DNA of 64,000 nucleotides from Halorhabdus rudnickae (GCF_900880625.1 NZ_CAAHFB010000001.1:1488001-1552000), one strand, 5' to 3'. Counted from the stretch's first letter, positions 9,902 to 61,566 are shown. Made by a program: numbers and translations. Notes: generated by a model from the letters alone, not told the origin.

Positions 9902-10762
9902 TCACTGTTCGCTCATCGCTTCGCTGGCCATGTTTCGACCCTGTGCGTTGAGCGTGACTTCAGTCCGAGTCCGGACCTCGTCGACGGCACCGAGCGTCAG
10001 CAGCCGCTGGTAGATCTCCTCGACCTCATCGACGCTGATACCGACGAAGTCGGCCATCTCGAACGGTGAAACGCCGGAATACAGCGCCATCAGGACCTGG
10101 CTTTCGGTCTCGCTCAGTTCGTACTCGCCGTCGCGCGCGTCGACGATCTGTTCGAAGAGCGTCCCGAGGACGGACGTGTGGCGCTCGGTCCCGGACAGAT
10201 AGGTCTCGACGCTCCGTCCCTCGGGGTCGGTGTGTTCGATCTCGACAACCCGACGCTGGGAATCCATGACCGTCCGAGACTCGACGTCGACGGTCCCGAC
10301 GTCCTCGAACGCACAGGCGACCTGCTGTCCGTCTGGGTACTGCAGGGAGAACGACTCGTCGTCGACCAGAAAGCGGGCCTTCGTCCACTCCGCGTCGTCT
10401 TGGACGACGCCGCCGACGACGGCGGGGTGGCGAACAAGCAATACAGCGCCGGCGAGGTTCGCCCGGCAGTACGCCAGAGTGATGTCCTCGGCGTCGGGCG
10501 TCGAGACGACGATCACGTTCGATCCGATCCGAATCGGGATCTCCCCGGCCGTGTCGTCGACGAACTCCCCCGGATCGTCGGGAATGATGACTTTCCCGTG
10601 CGGGATCGAGCGGTTCGATCCGTCGGCGGCCAGCACCAGGCGCTTGTCGGTCAAGACCACCCGACAGGACTGCCAGTCGCTTTCGGCGACGCGCTCGCCA
10701 TCCCTGACGGCGTAGCGGTAGTCCCCGGCCGCATCCAGCAGTTTCCGTTCCTCCTCGCTCAT
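9902..10762 (-). CDS. cheF: CheF-like taxis adaptor (third paralog)
   Basis: 286 aa from the ATG at 10762; a start 7 codons upstream is possible. The N-terminal part carries the RVVLTDKRLVLA then IPH pattern and repeated beta segments. The C-terminus is a winged-helix-like module (ALYSGVSPFEMADFVG) ending in EVTLNAQGRNMASEAM. The same layout and C-terminal motif occur in the gene at 59767. CheF proteins connect the Che phosphorelay (CheY, CheD, CheC2) to the archaellum in haloarchaea. No che or arl genes adjoin this copy, so its partner is unclear. Confidence 0.88.
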   Translation of the reverse strand: MSEEERKLLDAAGDYRYAVRDGERVAESDWQSCRVVLTDKRLVLAADGSNRSIPHGKVIIPDDPGEFVDDTAGEIPIRIGSNVIVVSTPDAEDITLAYCRANLAGAVLLVRHPAVVGGVVQDDAEWTKARFLVDDESFSLQYPDGQQVACAFEDVGTVDVESRTVMDSQRRVVEIEHTDPEGRSVETYLSGTERHTSVLGTLFEQIVDARDGEYELSETESQVLMALYSGVSPFEMADFVGISVDEVEEIYQRLLTLGAVDEVRTRTEVTLNAQGRNMASEAMSEQ

Positions 10763-10938
10763 ACCCCGTGCGTGCCCGAACATTCGAGAGAGAGGTGCAT
10801 ATATGTTCTCACCGTCCGTCGGCGGGAACCGGGGCGTGCCGGCTTCTCACAGCGGAAGCTCATCGACGATCGCGTCGACTGTCCGGACGCTGTGAGTGAC
10901 TCGAAAGGGAATTACGGCCCCCTCGCCACACGTCGCGT

Positions 10939-26497: not shown

Positions 26498-26974
26498 TCA
26501 GACCAGAACCTGACTCCGACCGAAGACCGCCAGGACGACCGCACAGGCGTACTCCGCCTCGTCTTCGTCCGCGTCCGCGGTCGCGACCTCGAGATGTTCG
26601 TCGCCGAAATCCCATTCCCGGAGGTCCCGGCCGGCCGCCAGTCCCGCCCGGACGTCCGCCCTGACGCGTTCGTCGTTCGCACCGGAGACTTCATAGAAGA
26701 TACCTGGGCCGTCGGACTCGCGCGTCCAGCCGATCGCTGCTGCCGCCTCGCCGGCATCGGTCGTCTCCGCAGCCTCGACGACGTACAGGCCCTGTCCAGC
26801 CGGACCGAGATCCGGAGCCGTCCCGACGCGTTCGATCTTCGCGTCGGCAGGAATAACCGACGACAGCGTCACAAGGTTGTAGTTGTGGACGCCGGCCGCG
26901 GCCAGGGCCGCGTCGTAGGCGGCCGTCGGCGTCGGGCCGCGTCCCGAACCCGTGACAATCCGTATTGTTCCCAT
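26498..26974 (-). CDS. pdaD: Pyruvoyl-dependent arginine decarboxylase
   Basis: 158 aa. The self-cleavage site is LSSVIP, with Ser39 becoming the pyruvoyl group after cleavage at Ser38-Ser39. GPAGQGLYVVEA and the end AVVLAVFGRS also match the family. The enzyme makes agmatine from arginine. In archaea agmatine feeds polyamines and the agmatidine of tRNA-Ile2. The length fits the family. Confidence 0.92.
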   Translation of the reverse strand: MGTIRIVTGSGRGPTPTAAYDAALAAAGVHNYNLVTLSSVIPADAKIERVGTAPDLGPAGQGLYVVEAAETTDAGEAAAAIGWTRESDGPGIFYEVSGANDERVRADVRAGLAAGRDLREWDFGDEHLEVATADADEDEAEYACAVVLAVFGRSQVLV

Positions 26975-27052
26975 CGCCCGGAAATCGGGCGAGCGGCAAG
27001 TAAAGTCCGTCGTTCGGGGCCGGCGACCACCTGCAATTCCAAATCAACGACC

Positions 27053-27083
27053 ATTATAATGATAGATTCTCATATATTGAGAA
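27053..27083 (+). promoter_or_regulatory. TATA-like box and perfect inverted repeat upstream of the hydrogenase operon
   Basis: TTATAATGAT (27053-27062) is followed by the perfect repeat TTCTCA-TATAT-TGAGAA (27067-27083), about 90-105 nt before hydB. A repeat just downstream of the TATA element is placed to block polymerase recruitment, so it may be a repressor operator. The function is inferred. Confidence 0.5.
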
Positions 27084-27171
27084 CGGCCGGGAGACTTACT
27101 CCGCTGGTTGGTGTCTTGACAGCCAAGAGACGAGTGAGCGACGACCTCACCCCGTCTCGGGACGTACGAGC

Positions 27172-28218
27172 ATGAAAGTAATCGATCGACCACACTTCAC
27201 AGCCCTGATCGAGGAGTTGGTCGCGGCCGATCCGCGGGACGTGGTTGGGGTACAGGAAGATGGCGAACAGTATGTCTTCGACCACTTGGAATCGGCCGAG
27301 GACCTCGCCCTGGAGTATGATCTGACGGCACTCTCGCCGAAGAAGTACGTCATGCCACAGCGAGAGACGCTATTGACCTACGACCGGACAGACGACGACC
27401 ACGAGATGCGGGCAAAAGCGGATCCGACGGGCCACATCGTCGTCGGCGTTCATCCCTACGATCTAGAGGCCATCAGACAACTCGACAAGATTTTCATCGA
27501 CACCCTACAGGACGAACCGTACCGCCGCAAACGCGAGAACACCGTCCTCATCGGGCTAACGATGCAAGACGTGGCCGACACCTGCTTTGCCGCGAGTATG
27601 GGCACGGCGACAGTTGAGAGTGGGTACGACCTCATGCTCACCGAGCTGGGTGACTCCTTTGCCGTGGACATCGGGACCTTCGAGGGCGATCAGTTGCTGG
27701 AGTCGGTCCCGACCAGGAACGCAACCGCCCGAGAGATCGAGCGCGTCGCGGAGATCGAGGCAGACCTTCAGGAAGCGTTCGACCGAGAACTGGAGTTCCC
27801 CCCGGCGGAACTCCCGACGCTGCTCGAAGACAGCTACGACGACATGGATTTCTGGGAAGACTACGCTGAACAGTGTCTCTCATGTGGCACCTGCAACGTG
27901 GTCTGTCCGACCTGCTTTTGTTTCAGTGTAGACATGGTTCGGGACCTCAAGGGCGATAGCGGTCGACAGGAGCGCCGCTGGGATGGGTGTCTCCTCGAAG
28001 ACTTCGCGACGGTCGCCCAGGGTGAGAACTTCCGGGAAGAGATCGCCCAGCGCCACCGCCATCGATTCATGCGCAAAGGATGGTACATATACGAACGCTA
28101 CGGCGACATCGCCTGCGTTGGCTGTGGGCGATGTACCCGCCACTGCGTCGCCGACGTGGCCGATCCCTGTGAGGTCTACAACGAGCTCTACCAGGAGGCC
28201 CAGGCCCATGCACAGTAG
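27172..28218 (+). CDS. hydB: NiFe hydrogenase (group 3b-like), iron-sulfur subunit beta
   Basis: 348 aa. The N-terminal 230 residues match the beta subunit of sulfhydrogenases and the A subunit of anaerobic sulfite reductase. Two [4Fe-4S] sites follow: Cys235, 238, 241 and 245 in CLSCGTCNVVC, and Cys315, 318, 321 and 325 in CVGCGRCTRHC. It carries electrons between the NAD(P)H-binding gamma subunit and the delta/alpha hydrogenase core. It is the first gene of the operon and overlaps hydG by 11 bases. Hydrogenase context with a full hydGDA set makes sulfite reductase unlikely. Confidence 0.93.
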   Translation: MKVIDRPHFTALIEELVAADPRDVVGVQEDGEQYVFDHLESAEDLALEYDLTALSPKKYVMPQRETLLTYDRTDDDHEMRAKADPTGHIVVGVHPYDLEAIRQLDKIFIDTLQDEPYRRKRENTVLIGLTMQDVADTCFAASMGTATVESGYDLMLTELGDSFAVDIGTFEGDQLLESVPTRNATAREIERVAEIEADLQEAFDRELEFPPAELPTLLEDSYDDMDFWEDYAEQCLSCGTCNVVCPTCFCFSVDMVRDLKGDSGRQERRWDGCLLEDFATVAQGENFREEIAQRHRHRFMRKGWYIYERYGDIACVGCGRCTRHCVADVADPCEVYNELYQEAQAHAQ

Positions 28219-29068
28219 TACGCAACCGAGCTTCGAAATCGGCCGCAACGAATTCCAGCCGATCGAGGGACGGATCGTCTGGATCGACGAGGTTACTGAC
28301 GACGATAAACTGTTTGTCATCGACCTCCCCGAGGGCCAGGAACTCGGGCATCAGCCTGGACAGTTCGTCCAGGTATTCGTCCCCGGCGTCGGCGAAGCGC
28401 CGTTCTCGATCACGTCCTCGCCGACCAAGGGCGGTCCCTTCGAGTTGTGTATCCGTGCTGTGGGGAACGTGACCAACGCGCTGCACGCGATGGAGACCGG
28501 CGACATGGTCGGAATACGCGGGCCATACGGCTCGGGTTTTGATCCTGAGGAACTCAAGGGCTCGGATCTGCTCTTTATCGCCGGAGGGATCGGCCTCGCG
28601 CCGCTCCGGTCGATGATCAACTACGCGCTGGACGAACGCGATAAGTTCGGCGAGTTGACAACAGTCTACGGCTGCAAGGAGCCGACCGAACAGCTCTATC
28701 CGAACGAATTACAGAAGTGGGCTGAGTCCGACAACATGGCGTACCTCGAGACCGTCGATCAGTGTCCCGATGACGTAGAGTGGGACGGCAACACTGGCGT
28801 CATCACGACAGTCATCCCCGACGTGGACATCGATGTCGAGTCCACGAACGTACTAGTCTGTGGGCCGCCGGTCATGTACCAGTTCGTCCTCGAGGAACTC
28901 GACGACATGGGCGTCCCCGACGAGAACGTCTATCTTTCGCTGGAGCGCAATATGCACTGTGGTCGTGGACTCTGTGGTCACTGCCAGATCAACGAACTGT
29001 ATGTCTGTCTGGACGGCCCGGTGTTCAACTACCCGGAAGTTCGCGACAAGGAGGAGGCAGGCCTATGA
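28208..29068 (+). CDS. hydG: NiFe hydrogenase (group 3b-like), FAD/NAD(P)-binding subunit gamma
   Basis: 286 aa from the ATG at 28208. The ferredoxin-reductase fold begins with a FAD-binding barrel (PGQFVQVFVPGVGEAPFSI). A nucleotide-binding region follows (LLFIAGGIGLAPLRSMI). The C-terminal CGRGLCGHCQ plus a later Cys bind a [2Fe-2S] cluster. It exchanges electrons with NAD(P)H. It overlaps hydB, and its stop overlaps the hydD start (ATGA). Confidence 0.94.
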   Translation: MHSSTQPSFEIGRNEFQPIEGRIVWIDEVTDDDKLFVIDLPEGQELGHQPGQFVQVFVPGVGEAPFSITSSPTKGGPFELCIRAVGNVTNALHAMETGDMVGIRGPYGSGFDPEELKGSDLLFIAGGIGLAPLRSMINYALDERDKFGELTTVYGCKEPTEQLYPNELQKWAESDNMAYLETVDQCPDDVEWDGNTGVITTVIPDVDIDVESTNVLVCGPPVMYQFVLEELDDMGVPDENVYLSLERNMHCGRGLCGHCQINELYVCLDGPVFNYPEVRDKEEAGL

Positions 29069-29865
29069 GCGAGAAGCCACGCGTCGCCTTCTTCGACTTC
29101 GCGGGCTGTGAGGGCGACCAGTTACAGGTCATCAACCTCGAAGAACGACTGCTGGACCTGGTCGATGTCGTCGAGGTCGTCAGCTTCCGTGAAGCGATGT
29201 CCGAACACTCCGATGATTACGACATCGCGTTCGTCGAAGGCTCGATCACGACACCTCACGACGCCGAGCGCCTGCGCGACGTGCGCGAGAACGCCGACAT
29301 CCTCATCGCGATCGGATCGTGTGCTGCCTTCGGAGGGATCAACGCGCTGCGGAACCACCAGGAACTCGAGACGGCCAAAGAGCGTGTCTACGGCGATGAT
29401 GCGACGTTGTTCGACGACCCCGATGCCGAGCTGTTCGACTCATTTGAGGCGGCCCAACCGGCTAGTGCGTTCGTCGACATCGAGTACGAAATCCCGGGCT
29501 GTCCGATCGACGGCGAGGAATTCATCCAGGCGGTCACGGCGCTGTTGAACGGGGCCGAGCCGACGCTGCCGAACCACCCCGTTTGCGTCGAGTGCAAGTT
29601 CGAGGAGAACACCTGTGCCTTCGAGCGCGGCGACACTTGTCTCGGCCCGATCACGCGCGGCGGGTGTGGTGCGACCTGTGTCTCACAGGGAACTCACTGC
29701 TGGGGATGCCGCGGCATGGTCGCCGACCCGAGCAAGGACGCCTACACGAAGGTCCTCGAAGAGCACGGCCTGACGGCCGAGGACATCGTCGAGGACTACC
29801 AGCTCTACTGGGGCTGGCAACGCGAGCAGACCGGCAAACCGGTGGCCCAGGAGGTCGAACAATGA
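29065..29865 (+). CDS. hydD: NiFe hydrogenase (group 3b-like), small subunit delta
   Basis: 266 aa from the ATG at 29065. The small-subunit start RVAFFDFAGCEGDQLQ supplies the first cluster Cys. GSCAAFGGINALRN and GCPIDGEEF supply others. The C-terminal half has further cysteines (CVECKFEENTC, CLGPITRGGCGATC) that should bind distal clusters. There is no Tat signal, so the enzyme is cytoplasmic. It overlaps both neighbours at ATGA. Confidence 0.94.
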   Translation: MSEKPRVAFFDFAGCEGDQLQVINLEERLLDLVDVVEVVSFREAMSEHSDDYDIAFVEGSITTPHDAERLRDVRENADILIAIGSCAAFGGINALRNHQELETAKERVYGDDATLFDDPDAELFDSFEAAQPASAFVDIEYEIPGCPIDGEEFIQAVTALLNGAEPTLPNHPVCVECKFEENTCAFERGDTCLGPITRGGCGATCVSQGTHCWGCRGMVADPSKDAYTKVLEEHGLTAEDIVEDYQLYWGWQREQTGKPVAQEVEQ

Positions 29866-31181
29866 GCAAGAACGTCTCGATCGACGGTGATCTGGTGACT
29901 CGCGTCGAAGGCCACGGCAAGATCGTCGTCGATGCAACCGACGGTGACGTACAAGATTGCGAGTGGCAGGTCGTCGAATCACCACGCTTCTTCGAGTCGA
30001 TGGTGGTCGACCGAAGCTACGAGGAGACCCACCACATCGTCTCGCGGATCTGTGCGATCTGCTCGGTCAGTCACACGCTGACCGCGCTGAAAGCGACCGA
30101 GGACGCGATGGACATCGAAGTCTCCGAACAGGACGTCAAACTCCGGAAGCTCGGCCTCTACGGCGAGATGCTCCAGAGCCACGTGCTGCACCTCGGCTAT
30201 CTCGCACTGCCCGATCTGGTGGGCCAGAAGTCGGTCGTTCCCATGGCCGAGACCCACGAAGAGGAAGTCGAGACAGTCGTCCGGCTCCACCGGCTGGGCA
30301 ACGACCTGACCGAAGTCGTTGGCGGACGGTCGGTCCACGCCCAGCGACCGATCCCGGGCGGGTTCTCGAAACTCCCGACCGAGACCGAACTCGAAACGGT
30401 CAGGAACGGCCTGGAAGCGTCCTGGGAGGACGTCGAGGCGGTCACGGACCTGCTGGTCAGCCTGGCCGACGAACTGCCCGACTTCACTCGCGAGACGGAG
30501 TTCATCTCGCTGACCCATCCCGACGAGTACGCCTTCTACGACGGCGTGCCCTACTCCTCGGACGAGGGCGAACTCGCGCTCGCCGAGTACGAGTCGATCG
30601 TCAACGAGCACGTCTCCAAGCAATCGACGGCGAAGTTCACCAGCCACGCCCGTGATTCCTACATGGTCGGAGCGCTGGCCCGGGTGAACAATAACTACGA
30701 GCAGCTCTCGCCGAAAGCCACGGCTGTCGCCGAGTCCGTCGGGCTAGAACCGGGTTGCCACAACCCCTACATGAACAACGTGGCCCAGCTGGTCGAGACG
30801 GCCCACCTCGTCGAGGAGTCGATCCGGCTACTCGACGAACTGCTTGCCGATGGGCTCGCCCCGCAGTCGGATTACCATACGCCCGATATCGATGTGAAAG
30901 CGGGTCGCGGCATCGGCGCCGTCGAGGTGCCGCGTGGCATCCTCTTCCACGATTACACTTACGACGACGCAGGTGACGTCACGGAGGCCAACTGCGTCAT
31001 CCCCACCAACCAGAACCACGCCAACATCCAGAAAGACATGGAGAAACTCGTACCGGAGATCATCGATCAGCCCGACGACGACATCGAACTGACCCTGGAG
31101 ATGCTCGTTCGGGCCTACGATCCGTGTATCTCCTGCTCGACGCACTACCTCGACGTCGAGTTCGTCGGTGACGAGACATGA
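29862..31181 (+). CDS. hydA: NiFe hydrogenase (group 3b-like), large catalytic subunit alpha
   Basis: 439 aa from the ATG at 29862. The nickel site is complete: RICAICSVSH with Cys64 and Cys67, and DPCISCSTH with Cys422 and Cys425. His428 is followed by an 11-residue tail that the maturation protease should remove. PIPGGF and NYEQLSPKA also match group 3 enzymes. It catalyses reversible H2 oxidation coupled to NAD(P). Base composition and codon use look like the neighbours, so any transfer is old. Confidence 0.95.
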   Translation: MSKNVSIDGDLVTRVEGHGKIVVDATDGDVQDCEWQVVESPRFFESMVVDRSYEETHHIVSRICAICSVSHTLTALKATEDAMDIEVSEQDVKLRKLGLYGEMLQSHVLHLGYLALPDLVGQKSVVPMAETHEEEVETVVRLHRLGNDLTEVVGGRSVHAQRPIPGGFSKLPTETELETVRNGLEASWEDVEAVTDLLVSLADELPDFTRETEFISLTHPDEYAFYDGVPYSSDEGELALAEYESIVNEHVSKQSTAKFTSHARDSYMVGALARVNNNYEQLSPKATAVAESVGLEPGCHNPYMNNVAQLVETAHLVEESIRLLDELLADGLAPQSDYHTPDIDVKAGRGIGAVEVPRGILFHDYTYDDAGDVTEANCVIPTNQNHANIQKDMEKLVPEIIDQPDDDIELTLEMLVRAYDPCISCSTHYLDVEFVGDET

Positions 31182-31215
31182 GGGCTGTCGTAGTCCAGAC
31201 GCGACACGATCGACC

Positions 31216-31668
31216 ATGAGTGCCGATCGCGCTGTCGTCGCGCTGGGGAACCCGTACCGCCGTGACGACGGCGTTGGTCCCGCGCTCCTCGCGCGCCTCC
31301 GCGATCGCGATCTCCCGTCGGTGGACTGTCTCGACCTCGGGGACGCGGGGTTCGATCTGGTCCACGTTGTGATGGACTACGAGGGCGTCGTGATCGTCGA
31401 CGCCGTGGACTTCGGCGGTGACGCGGGTGAGATTGACGTGTTCGATCCCGCAGACGCGACGGAGATGGTCGATCGACGGGGCACACACGCCACGGATCTC
31501 TTCGAACTCTTCGAACTCGGTGACGGGCTGGCGGAGACGGAGACGGCGATCCGCGTCGTCGGTATCCAGCCGGCTGAGACGGGGTTCGGGGAAGGGTTGT
31601 CCCCCGCGATCGCTGAGCGGGCCCCCGCGGCATTAGACGCACTCGAGAGGGCACTCCAGTGTGTCTGA
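31216..31668 (+). CDS. Hydrogenase maturation endopeptidase
   Basis: 150 aa from the ATG at 31216. The family motif GNPYRRDDGVGP carries the first nickel-sensing acid. VVIVDAVDFGG supplies the second and GTHATDLFEL the His. These proteases cut the large-subunit C-terminus after nickel insertion. It starts 34 nt after hydA, so it should serve that subunit. No hypABCDEF genes are in the window. Confidence 0.92.
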   Translation: MSADRAVVALGNPYRRDDGVGPALLARLRDRDLPSVDCLDLGDAGFDLVHVVMDYEGVVIVDAVDFGGDAGEIDVFDPADATEMVDRRGTHATDLFELFELGDGLAETETAIRVVGIQPAETGFGEGLSPAIAERAPAALDALERALQCV

Positions 31669-49590: not shown

Positions 49591-50865
49591 TTACGGTTCG
49601 CGGTTCATGACCTGTTCTCGCGGGGCGAAACGACCCTCGCTACGGTCGAACAGGCGAACCGCTGGCTGTGCCAACCAGCCGTTATCCCTATCCTGTTGAG
49701 GATTCGGGAGTACCTTTTGTCGGATATTCTCTGCCCCGTTACTATCAGCATTGGCGACCAGCCCACATTCCTCACAGACGTACAGCCCACGCTCGACGCG
49801 CTGGCTGTCGGCGCTTCGACCGCACGCCGAACACGACTTCGACGTGTCTCGCTCGGAGACAAGTTCGACCTCAATGCCCCGTTCTTCGGCCTTGTAGGTG
49901 AGCATCGACGTGAAGCGGTCGAACGCCCAGCCGTGCAAATCGAGATTGCCGTGGTCGCCCCAGTTGCGAGGCTCGCCGTTCTCGTCGTCTTCGCGGATGC
50001 TCGCGAGGTCGCCCACGACAATCATTTCAACGCCACGCTCGATGCACTCCTCGACGATTGCTTTCGAAAGCGTGTGCAAGAAGTGCGTCCGGCGACCCGT
50101 TCGTTTGCGGTCAAGACGGGTAGCTTCACGGGACGAAGAATCGTCGCATTTGGCTTTCTTCTTGGCGAAATAGTATTCGTTCTCTTTGAGCGCCCCACCG
50201 GGGTACAGCAGGGATTCATCGCCAAACGATACGGCGGCGACGTTACAGATGCCGAGATCGATCCCGGCCACATCGTCACCGGGTGCGTCTGGGGAGTCAA
50301 TTTCGACCTGGCAAACGACGTGCAATCGCCACTCGCCGTGCTCGTACACGGCACGAACCTGCTGGACGTTCTCGATGGCCGTCTCGGGCGGTCCAATGAC
50401 CTCGTACTCACAGAGGACGAAGTCTGACCACCCGTCCTTCAGGTTCTTGCCCTTCGAGAGCCTGAGACGGTTGTTCGCGGCGTCGTGTTTGAAGCCCGCC
50501 TGCTTGAACGTGACCGTCGAGCGTGGGTGGTCGCCGTTGCGTTTGCGGTATCCGGGCGGGTTCGCTTTCGTGTCCCCGTTTTCGCGCTTGCCGACCCAAC
50601 TGGTGAACGCCTCACCGAGTTCCTGGAGAACTCGTTGACTGGATTGTGAATGCAAGTCCGCATAGCGTTCGTGCTTTTTGAGGTAGGCCGTGAGCGCGTT
50701 AGCGCCGGGAATCTGGCCGCAAGCGTCCCAGACACGTTGGGCGGTCCAGCGACCAACGTTCCAGAGCTTGCTGGCGGCGAACCCGAGCGAATCGAGATCG
50801 TCACGCACTTGCGAGTGATTGAGAATCCTCGCCCGAAAGGTGCGTGTGGCGACCTTATTCGCCAT
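49591..50865 (-). CDS. tnpB: RNA-guided endonuclease TnpB (IS1341-type)
   Basis: 424 aa. An N-terminal HTH-like region is followed by a split RuvC fold. Asp203 lies in GIDLGICN and Asp374 in NADSNGAEN. The zinc knuckle has Cys345, Cys348, Cys364 and Cys367. The usual RuvC-II Glu is replaced by Gly285 in IVVGDLASI; Glu292 and Glu295 follow closely. TnpB proteins cut DNA guided by the element's right-end RNA and favour its retention. Activity here depends on whether another acid takes over. Confidence 0.93.
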   Translation of the reverse strand: MANKVATRTFRARILNHSQVRDDLDSLGFAASKLWNVGRWTAQRVWDACGQIPGANALTAYLKKHERYADLHSQSSQRVLQELGEAFTSWVGKRENGDTKANPPGYRKRNGDHPRSTVTFKQAGFKHDAANNRLRLSKGKNLKDGWSDFVLCEYEVIGPPETAIENVQQVRAVYEHGEWRLHVVCQVEIDSPDAPGDDVAGIDLGICNVAAVSFGDESLLYPGGALKENEYYFAKKKAKCDDSSSREATRLDRKRTGRRTHFLHTLSKAIVEECIERGVEMIVVGDLASIREDDENGEPRNWGDHGNLDLHGWAFDRFTSMLTYKAEERGIEVELVSERDTSKSCSACGRSADSQRVERGLYVCEECGLVANADSNGAENIRQKVLPNPQQDRDNGWLAQPAVRLFDRSEGRFAPREQVMNREP

Positions 50866-59766: not shown

Positions 59767-60630
59767 ATGAGCGAAGGCGAACACACGCTCGCCGACACGA
59801 AGGGCCGGTTCGTCCAGGTCGTCAAAGACGGGCGGAAACGCAACGACGTTGAGTGGATCCCTGGACGATTGGTCCTCTCGAATAAGCGACTCGTCTTGGC
59901 GAGCAACGAAGGCAAGCAGACCATCCCCGTCTCGGACATCCAGAGCATCAGGACTCGCCAGAACGTCACCGAGGCGATCGCACAGGTTTCGGGCTACATC
60001 TCGATCCAGGCGGGCCGGAACGTCCTGTTGCTCGCGCCGGCCGACGAGGAGGCCTTTGCGGAGGCACTGTTCGGTGCGCGTCTGGACCAGCAAGTAGTAC
60101 TGGCGAAACACCCCGCGGTAAAAGGTGGCGTCGTACAGGACACCGACTGGGAGAAGGCCCGGATCAAAGTGGGCGAGGACGCCGTCGAACTGGCGATCTC
60201 CAGCGGCGAGTTCGTCGAGATCGAACTCGACGACGTCGGGACTGTCGACGAAACTGAGCGGACAGTCAGGGGGAACGAACGGTCCGTCCTCGAGGCCGAA
60301 CACGCAATCGAGGGGACCAGTGTGAAGACCTACCTCTCGGGGTCCCCAACTGACTGTTCGGTCCTGGCGTCGCTGTTGCGGTCGGGTGACCAGCACGTCG
60401 AGTCGGACATCGATCTCTCCGAGGCAGAACGCGAGGTGCTGATGGCGCTTTATACAGGTGTCTCGCCGTTCGAGATCCCGGACTTCGTCGGGCTCGAGGT
60501 GGGGGAAGTCGAGAACGTCTTCGAACGGCTCGCCGAGCAAGGCGTCGTCGAGAAAGTACGAACGCGCCGAGAAGTCGATCTCAAACCACGCGGGCGCTCG
60601 ATCGCCAGCGAGGCCAGCGCCGATCAGTAA
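59767..60630 (+). CDS. cheF: CheF taxis protein
   Basis: 287 aa. RLVLSNKRLVLASNEGKQTIPVSDI, then AGRNVLLLAPADEE and KHPAVKGGVVQD form the N-terminal beta part. The C-terminal winged-helix-like module reads ALYTGVSPFEIPDFVGL. It links CheY to the archaellum machinery. It is convergent with a second CheF-like gene, the arrangement reported for cheF1 and cheF2 in Halobacterium. Confidence 0.92.
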   Translation: MSEGEHTLADTKGRFVQVVKDGRKRNDVEWIPGRLVLSNKRLVLASNEGKQTIPVSDIQSIRTRQNVTEAIAQVSGYISIQAGRNVLLLAPADEEAFAEALFGARLDQQVVLAKHPAVKGGVVQDTDWEKARIKVGEDAVELAISSGEFVEIELDDVGTVDETERTVRGNERSVLEAEHAIEGTSVKTYLSGSPTDCSVLASLLRSGDQHVESDIDLSEAEREVLMALYTGVSPFEIPDFVGLEVGEVENVFERLAEQGVVEKVRTRREVDLKPRGRSIASEASADQ

Positions 60631-60690: not shown

Positions 60691-61566
60691 TCAGTCGTTA
60701 ACATCATCGAGGTGCCGGTTGACGACGACCCGCCCTTTCGATGTCAGCACCGGCCCGTCGTCGGTCGTCGTGACCAAGTCATCGGCTTCGAGGTCGTTTA
60801 CGAGCATGGTCACTTCGCTTGCGTCCCGATCGACGACGTTCGCCAGCGAGACGCCCCCCATGTCGCCGGCGGAGTAGACGGCGATCAACAACTCTTTCTC
60901 GGCGTTGGTAAGCTCGATGTCCTTGAGTTCGCCCATCAAGTCCGAATACTCGAGCCGGAGGTACCGACCCAGCAAGGAGAGCTTCCGCGACGAGGGGAGG
61001 GCGGCGACCGTCGTCATCGCCTGCCCGTCGGGCATGTGCCTGACGACGATGGTCGCCCGGCTGGAACCGGCGATTTCCCTGGTATCTCTGCTGAATTCGG
61101 TAACAGCCGACAGCGAGATCGTAAAGGAATCCGACGAGCGGTTGAACCGCACGCCCTTGGGCTCCAAAGCGAGTTTAGCCGGTGTGTACTCCGCGTCGGT
61201 GACGCGCCCGCCGAGTTCGGCGGGATGTTTGACGGTCGTGTCCGTGCCGTTGAGCAGCGCCTTGAACAGTACCGTCGAGAACTTCTCGATTTTCGCGTCG
61301 TCGGATTCGATCACGGCGACGAGCCGCCGGTCGCCCTTCTCGAAGGCGATCGTGACCGTCGAATCGAAGAAATCACCCAGGCCCGGCGGGACGTGCCCGA
61401 CAGCGACATCGAAGACGTTCGAGAGTGGGATCGTCGTCTTGGACTCGTCTGCAGCCAGTACCAGCCGTTTCTGACTCAGAAGGACCCGTCCGGTCGTCGG
61501 TTCAGCCCGCGCAGTCTTCTCCGAGTTGAATTTAGCGACGAAATCGGCGATGACTGACTCCGACAT
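60691..61566 (-). CDS. CheF-like taxis protein (second type)
   Basis: 291 aa. It shares the RVLLSQKRLVLAADESKTTIPLS start and the ending ITTDDGPVLTSKGRVVVNRHL with CheF, but the C-terminal module (AEKELLIAVYSAGDMGGVSL) is diverged. It is likely the CheF2-type partner of the gene at 59767. No other che genes are in view. Confidence 0.85.
   Translation of the reverse strand: MSESVIADFVAKFNSEKTARAEPTTGRVLLSQKRLVLAADESKTTIPLSNVFDVAVGHVPPGLGDFFDSTVTIAFEKGDRRLVAVIESDDAKIEKFSTVLFKALLNGTDTTVKHPAELGGRVTDAEYTPAKLALEPKGVRFNRSSDSFTISLSAVTEFSRDTREIAGSSRATIVVRHMPDGQAMTTVAALPSSRKLSLLGRYLRLEYSDLMGELKDIELTNAEKELLIAVYSAGDMGGVSLANVVDRDASEVTMLVNDLEADDLVTTTDDGPVLTSKGRVVVNRHLDDVND

Follow-up and report, generated by a model that had tools for sequence, protein, structure and literature searches.

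What a hydrogenase operon encodes, and what it does, in a haloarchaeon is the question raised by positions 27172-31668 of a stretch of Halorhabdus rudnickae DNA. Halobacteria are usually regarded as aerobes. The whole stretch that was analyzed, here called the window, is 64,000 nucleotides long and corresponds to positions 1488001-1552000 of a 2.29 Mb contig in a Halorhabdus genome of 3.36 Mb.

A group 3b hydrogenase operon

The first-pass annotation had described four overlapping subunit genes and a maturation protease, and both gene coordinates and profile matches bear this out. Five genes with intact reading frames, all on the + strand, fill positions 27172-31668 exactly in the order hydB-hydG-hydD-hydA followed by the protease, and neighboring subunit genes overlap by 4 to 11 bases. 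Moreover, the NCBIfam and Pfam matches of all five proteins are nearly full length and far beyond chance. The genes are listed below, with Pfu SHI standing for the sulfhydrogenase I of Pyrococcus furiosus.

hydB, 27172-28218, + strand: beta subunit with two 4Fe-4S clusters (Fer4_22), sulfhydrogenase/AsrA type; NCBIfam ShyB, E 7.4e-57; Pfam Fer4_22; Pfu SHI beta, 9nez_B, 1.9e-48
hydG, 28208-29068, + strand: gamma subunit that binds FAD and NAD(P) and has one 2Fe-2S cluster; Pfam FAD_binding_6, NAD_binding_1, and DHODB_Fe-S_bind; profile E 1.5e-78; Pfu SHI gamma, 9nez_C, 9.9e-63
hydD, 29065-29865, + strand: small subunit with the proximal and further Fe-S clusters; Oxidored_q6; NCBIfam HydD, 6.1e-53; Pfu SHI delta, 9nez_A, 1.4e-47
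CEGD motif of HydD (residues 15-18), 29107-29118, + strand: the Asp18 codon, 29116-29118, replaces the second Cys of the proximal-cluster CxxC
hydA, 29862-31181, + strand: large subunit, which holds the NiFe site (RICAIC, DPCISCSTH); PF00374; NCBIfam ShyA, 4.7e-80; Pfu SHI alpha, 9nez_D, 1.2e-68
maturation protease (HycI/HupD family), from an ATG at 31216 (a GTG at 31168 is also possible) to 31668, + strand: TIGR00072, 5.9e-32, above the curated cut-off; PF01750

The C-terminal extension of HydA that follows its last His, YLDVEFVGDET, is the expected target of the protease. Elsewhere in the window, inspection by eye suggested a TnpB/OrfB-like transposon protein (49591-50865, minus strand) and three related CheF-like taxis proteins of about 290 amino acids (9902-10783, 59767-60630, and 60691-61566).

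Several lines of evidence place the enzyme in group 3b. The best solved-structure matches of HydA, HydB, HydG, and HydD are the four chains of Pfu SHI (9nez), over nearly full length, and the four-subunit architecture of group 3b, with large, small, FAD/NAD(P), and Fer4 subunits, is present by Pfam and by the matches to Pfu SHI. All nickel cysteines are there, as had been claimed: HydA has four, in two CxxC motifs (RICAIC and DPCISC) that are invariant across all 3b rows of the alignment. Finally, a maximum-likelihood tree was built from concatenated HydA and HydD (52 rows) with the column of the CxxC/CxxD motif omitted. HydA, together with HydD, fell inside group 3b as first proposed, in a set of 47 rows that includes Pfu SHI and bacterial 3b enzymes and that is split at 100/100 from the other group 3 rows and NiFe-Bfu. 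Within that set, 13 haloarchaeal 3b rows were monophyletic (100/100). The core genes of NiFe-Bfu, BfuABC, are absent from the window operon and are found elsewhere in the genome.

How closely the enzyme resembles its best-known relative is indicated by curated models. HydA, HydB, HydG, and HydD all score below the cut-offs of the NCBIfam sulfhydrogenase I/II equivalog models (NF040828-NF040836), with HydA at 256.9 of 880 and 269.5 of 700 bits and HydG at 222 of 650, even though sulfhydrogenase models are among the best matches. By these scores, the enzyme belongs to 3b but does not count as an equivalog of its Thermococcales counterparts, and identical substrate use is not implied. Pfu SHI (also called soluble hydrogenase I, HydBGDA; PDB 9nez and 9e15; group 3b) resembles the window enzyme in its four subunits, its NiFe cysteines, its FAD/NAD(P) subunit, and its C-terminal His cleavage site, but it is distant in sequence, on a long branch, and the host of the window enzyme is a mesophilic halophile.

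An alternative is that the enzyme serves chiefly to reduce sulfur or polysulfide (sulfhydrogenase activity) when the cell metabolizes sulfur anaerobically and that its turnover of H2 is secondary. HydB and HydG resemble the sulfite reductase subunits AsrA and AsrB as well as the sulfhydrogenase families, and a Psr operon is known from Halapricum salinum (PMC6176080). The resemblance, however, is common to 3b enzymes generally and does not discriminate. Moreover, the operon contains no sulfur-specific gene, and its conserved neighbor is another hydrogenase in Halapricum and an arginine decarboxylase-like gene in Halorhabdus. We consider a primary role in sulfur reduction unlikely. We conclude instead that the product of the operon is a heterotetrameric [NiFe]-hydrogenase of group 3b, cytoplasmic and of the Pfu SHI type, and we hold this explanation as a whole, including the mechanism discussed below, with high confidence. 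The enzyme class is already known and is rare among Halobacteria.

An aspartate in the proximal-cluster motif of HydD

The first-pass annotation had also credited the enzyme with all of its cluster cysteines, which is off by one residue. Aligned to the delta subunit of Pfu SHI, HydD has CEGD where the P. furiosus protein has CYGC, such that the second Cys of the proximal CxxC is Asp18. The remaining cluster cysteines, namely, 11 others in HydD and those of HydB and HydG, are present and are common to both enzymes. A proximal cluster with four Cys ligands in the small subunit is usual for group 3b and is not class defining. By phylogeny and architecture, the CEGD enzyme remains a 3b hydrogenase, as a variant.

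The substitution marks a clade. Among 52 aligned HydD rows, CxxD was found in 18 of the 18 members of one clade and Cys in the 34 of 34 rows outside it. The Asp rows comprise the 13 haloarchaeal copies and five metagenome-assembled genomes (MAGs) named Thermoplasmata, Bipolaricaulota, Bathyarchaeota, deltaproteobacterium, and Halarchaeoplasma. On the tree built without the motif column, one step accounts for Cys-to-Asp (support, 68/92; seen in 72% of bootstrap trees), and a second tree likewise gave a single change (SH-aLRT, 94). The 11 other HydD cysteines are kept in 46 or 47 of the 47 group 3b rows. No compensating cysteine for Asp18 was found in the 3b alignment, in which the other clade-specific columns are not cysteines.

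Whether Asp18 takes the place of the lost ligand was considered by analogy. An AlphaFold model of HydD (26 sequences) had a mean pLDDT of 59.7, too poor to place Asp18 relative to the cluster. In FrhG of the group 3a F420-reducing hydrogenase of Methanothermobacter marburgensis, however, Asp replaces a proximal-cluster Cys (PMC3591093), and for groups 1h, 1f, and 2a, one of the ligand positions of this cluster is reported to be occupied by Asp or Asn (PMC5364354). FrhG and the actinobacterial-type group 1h enzyme, as known from their descriptions, thus resemble HydD in having Asp for one proximal-cluster Cys, likely at the same position. Asp18 probably ligates the proximal cluster, and the cluster nearest the NiFe site would then most likely have three Cys ligands and one Asp ligand. 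An Asp ligand might shift the potential of the cluster, its handling of O2, or the catalytic bias of the enzyme. A literature search of incomplete coverage found no description of Asp at a proximal-cluster ligand position in group 3b, and the clade-specific Asp is new here.

Alternatively, the substitution might leave a labile or 3Fe proximal cluster, and a slow or partly disabled enzyme might be retained for some other purpose, for instance, to sense H2. One canonical cluster ligand is indeed missing. The Asp, however, is fixed in every member of the clade across phyla, conservation extends to the remaining catalytic and cluster cysteines, and the reading frames are intact. Other hydrogenases, moreover, can function with Asp at such a site (PMC3591093, PMC5364354). 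A disabled enzyme is therefore improbable, and we favor a working group 3b hydrogenase with a variant proximal cluster.

Distribution and history of the locus

How widespread the enzyme is was determined with HydD as the query. Operons of this kind had been called uncommon in the class, and indeed, a 3b enzyme was found in 12 of 392 Halobacteria genomes and in 3 of 86 genera. The carriers are all seven Halorhabdus genomes sampled, four genomes of the sister genus Halapricum, and one genome of another family (G373). Further 3b-like matches in the phylum sample were much more distant. Outside Halobacteria, the closest relatives are the five MAGs already listed, 57 to 64% identical in HydA; their contigs are partly under 10 kb, and misbinning is possible for relatives in other phyla. 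Viral contigs contained no relative of the operon. Plasmids encoded just distant 3b enzymes (Rhodococcus, Streptomyces, Burkholderiales, and a few others), and the three inspected have CxxC. We note that Halapricum hydrolyticum (G273; loci L123 and L124, the latter being contig 33) has two 3b operons, the second of which is the deepest haloarchaeal branch.

The operon adjoins the same PvlArgDC-like (arginine decarboxylase-like) gene in all seven Halorhabdus genomes. That gene is divergent from hydB, and parts of the promoter region between them, including two palindromes, are conserved in the same seven genomes.

PvlArgDC-like gene, 26498-26974, minus strand: arginine decarboxylase-like
intergenic region, 26975-27171: divergent promoter region between hydB and the PvlArgDC-like gene
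palindrome CATTATAATG, 27052-27061, + strand: occurs once in the window, against 0 expected from shuffled sequence; ATTATAAT in 7 of 7 Halorhabdus genomes, in the same intergenic region
inverted repeat TTCTCA-N5-TGAGAA, 27067-27083, + strand: upstream of hydB; candidate regulator-binding site

The palindrome CATTATAATG is possibly the core promoter element of hydB. The inverted repeat takes the form TTCYC-N7-GRGAA at this place in 7 of 7 Halorhabdus genomes and also occurs upstream of hydB in G373; a stricter form has just two sites genome-wide.

The history of the genes is mosaic. Compared to the syntenic Halorhabdus genome G001, the flanks and hydB are mostly 80 to 90% identical, whereas from about position 28,450, within hydG, to the end of hydA, identity drops to mostly 71 to 80%. 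Identity of hydG-D-A to genome G003 and to Halapricum is similar to or above that to G001. At the protein level, HydB is 84 to 88% identical to that of five other Halorhabdus genomes but HydG, HydD, and HydA are just 68 to 75% identical. Trees tell the two parts apart: the window copy lies inside Halorhabdus for HydB (93/96) and with G003, Halapricum, and G373 for HydA (88/94). G003 itself has a Halapricum-like version of all four subunit genes at the same locus.

One explanation is that the operon is a recent foreign import that has no settled role in its host, since hydG-D-A has only about 72 to 79% DNA identity to the syntenic Halorhabdus copies and groups elsewhere in the tree. The PvlArgDC-like neighbor, however, is the same in seven of seven Halorhabdus genomes, and none of the six sister genomes checked lacks the operon at the site. 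Moreover, hydB is of the native type, as are the palindromes that precede it and the flanks, and the hyp genes and codon use fit the host. Codon use had been said to resemble that of the neighbors, and the four subunit genes do lie inside the neighbors' range, with GC3 inside or slightly below it. An allele swap in an old locus accounts for all of these observations, and recent import of the operon is very improbable. The simplest reading is that divergent hydG-D-A alleles replaced older ones in an old locus. Thus, the earlier view that the operon is no fresh arrival holds for the locus, which is syntenic across Halorhabdus, but not for hydG-D-A, whose alleles appear to have been swapped for a divergent version beside native hydB and flanks. 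The mosaic history of the locus is new here.

Maturation genes and other hydrogenases of the cell

A hydrogenase of this type was expected to be accompanied by hyp genes, and all six, HypA-F, were found in the genome, with hypC-D-E-A-B in one cluster and hypF nearby (E values to 1e-250). HypA, HypB, HypE, and HypF were identified by NCBIfam, HypF has its zinc fingers, HypD was matched, and HypC was recognized by eye (it starts with MCLGIPG, and its gene adjoins hypD).

The genome also encodes NiFe-Bfu, an enzyme already known in Halorhabdus (PMC9304861). A complete operon of the HydABCSL type with its own protease lies on the minus strand about 350 kb from the window operon (L011, 7510-14346; about 1863.5-1870.3 kb of contig C1), and its products best match the Acetomicrobium mobile enzyme (BfuB, 7t2r_B, 1.4e-206; BfuA, 7t2r_A, 6.3e-78; BfuL, 7t2r_D, 2.1e-157). 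An assignment of this second hydrogenase as HoxEFUYH (group 3d) was rejected on account of the length of its A and B subunits, which have 7t2r as their best match. The A. mobile NiFe-Bfu HydABCSL (PDB 7t2r) resembles the window enzyme in being cytoplasmic and NAD linked with a group 3-type large subunit, but it is bifurcating, with ferredoxin and BfuABC. The window operon is without these, and the two enzymes are 100/100 apart in the tree.

The 3b and Bfu enzymes are linked in genomes. In four Halapricum genomes (G008, G273, G287, and G196; loci L067, L123, L125, and L126), the two operons are head to head, with about 270 to 480 bases between bfuC and hydB. A Bfu small subunit was found in every Halorhabdus and Halapricum genome with a 3b HydD and was not found in G373. 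The genomic link of 3b to NiFe-Bfu is new here.

Two further gene sets were observed in the genome. The first (L010, 7680-10810 of contig C6) is a group 1/NiFeSe-like pair with a protease, in which the small subunit has a Tat signal and a C-terminal third without recognizable medial or distal cluster motifs in any frame. The second (L012, 5659-9304 of contig C4) is a NuoA/B/C/D/H-like set with a D-like subunit that retains RICGIC and DPCISC. No ferredoxin or antiporter subunit adjoins the second set, which we regard as a probable small membrane hydrogenase of group 4 and not as complex I. The group 4-like complex and the group 1-like pair extend the cell's equipment for hydrogen metabolism. 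We note that group 1a uptake hydrogenases of Halodesulfurarchaeum and soda-lake strains are likewise NiFe enzymes in Halobacteria with hyp genes (PMC5437934, PMC6176080). Those enzymes are membrane bound and respiratory with a HydC cytochrome b, whereas the window enzyme is predicted to be a soluble, NAD(P)-linked 3b enzyme.

Discussion

How the enzyme would work can be outlined from its relatives, and its fold, cofactors, and electron chain are derived from homology. HypA-F would assemble the active site, and HydA would be trimmed by the protease encoded in the operon. H2 would be made or oxidized at the NiFe site of HydA; both the reaction and its direction are inferred. The Fe-S clusters of HydD and HydB would relay electrons to the HydG flavin, the site at which NAD(P)+ would be reduced or NAD(P)H oxidized.

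What the cell gains from the enzyme may lie in its other hydrogenases. The head-to-head operons and the genomic co-occurrence suggest that Bfu, which would interconvert H2 with NADH and ferredoxin, and the 3b enzyme, which would interconvert H2 with NAD(P)H, are used jointly. In other anaerobes, Nfn uses NADH and reduced ferredoxin to drive NADP+ reduction, and Bfu plus the 3b enzyme, running in one of the two directions, would have the same net reaction as Nfn. In a Halorhabdus cell that is facultatively anaerobic and ferments sugars, the window enzyme most likely balances NADPH against H2 from other hydrogenases, above all NiFe-Bfu with its NADH and ferredoxin. We note that Halorhabdus utahensis grows anaerobically by glucose fermentation (PMC3035240).

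Perhaps the two themes belong together, and we offer the following only as a tentative proposal. The 3b subclade of Halobacteria, Thermoplasmatota, Bathyarchaeota, Bipolaricaulota, and the deltaproteobacterium may have a 3Cys:1Asp cluster that alters bias or the response to O2, and in Halapricum and Halorhabdus, the enzyme may in addition be coupled to NiFe-Bfu through H2 as an intermediate, such that NADH and reduced ferredoxin drive NADP+ reduction.

The fixed change from Cys to Asp at the cluster next to the NiFe site offers a natural experiment on what a carboxylate ligand would do in a soluble hydrogenase, in a genus that has grown type strains. Soluble and bifurcating NiFe hydrogenases in one cell show how some Halobacteria can ferment.
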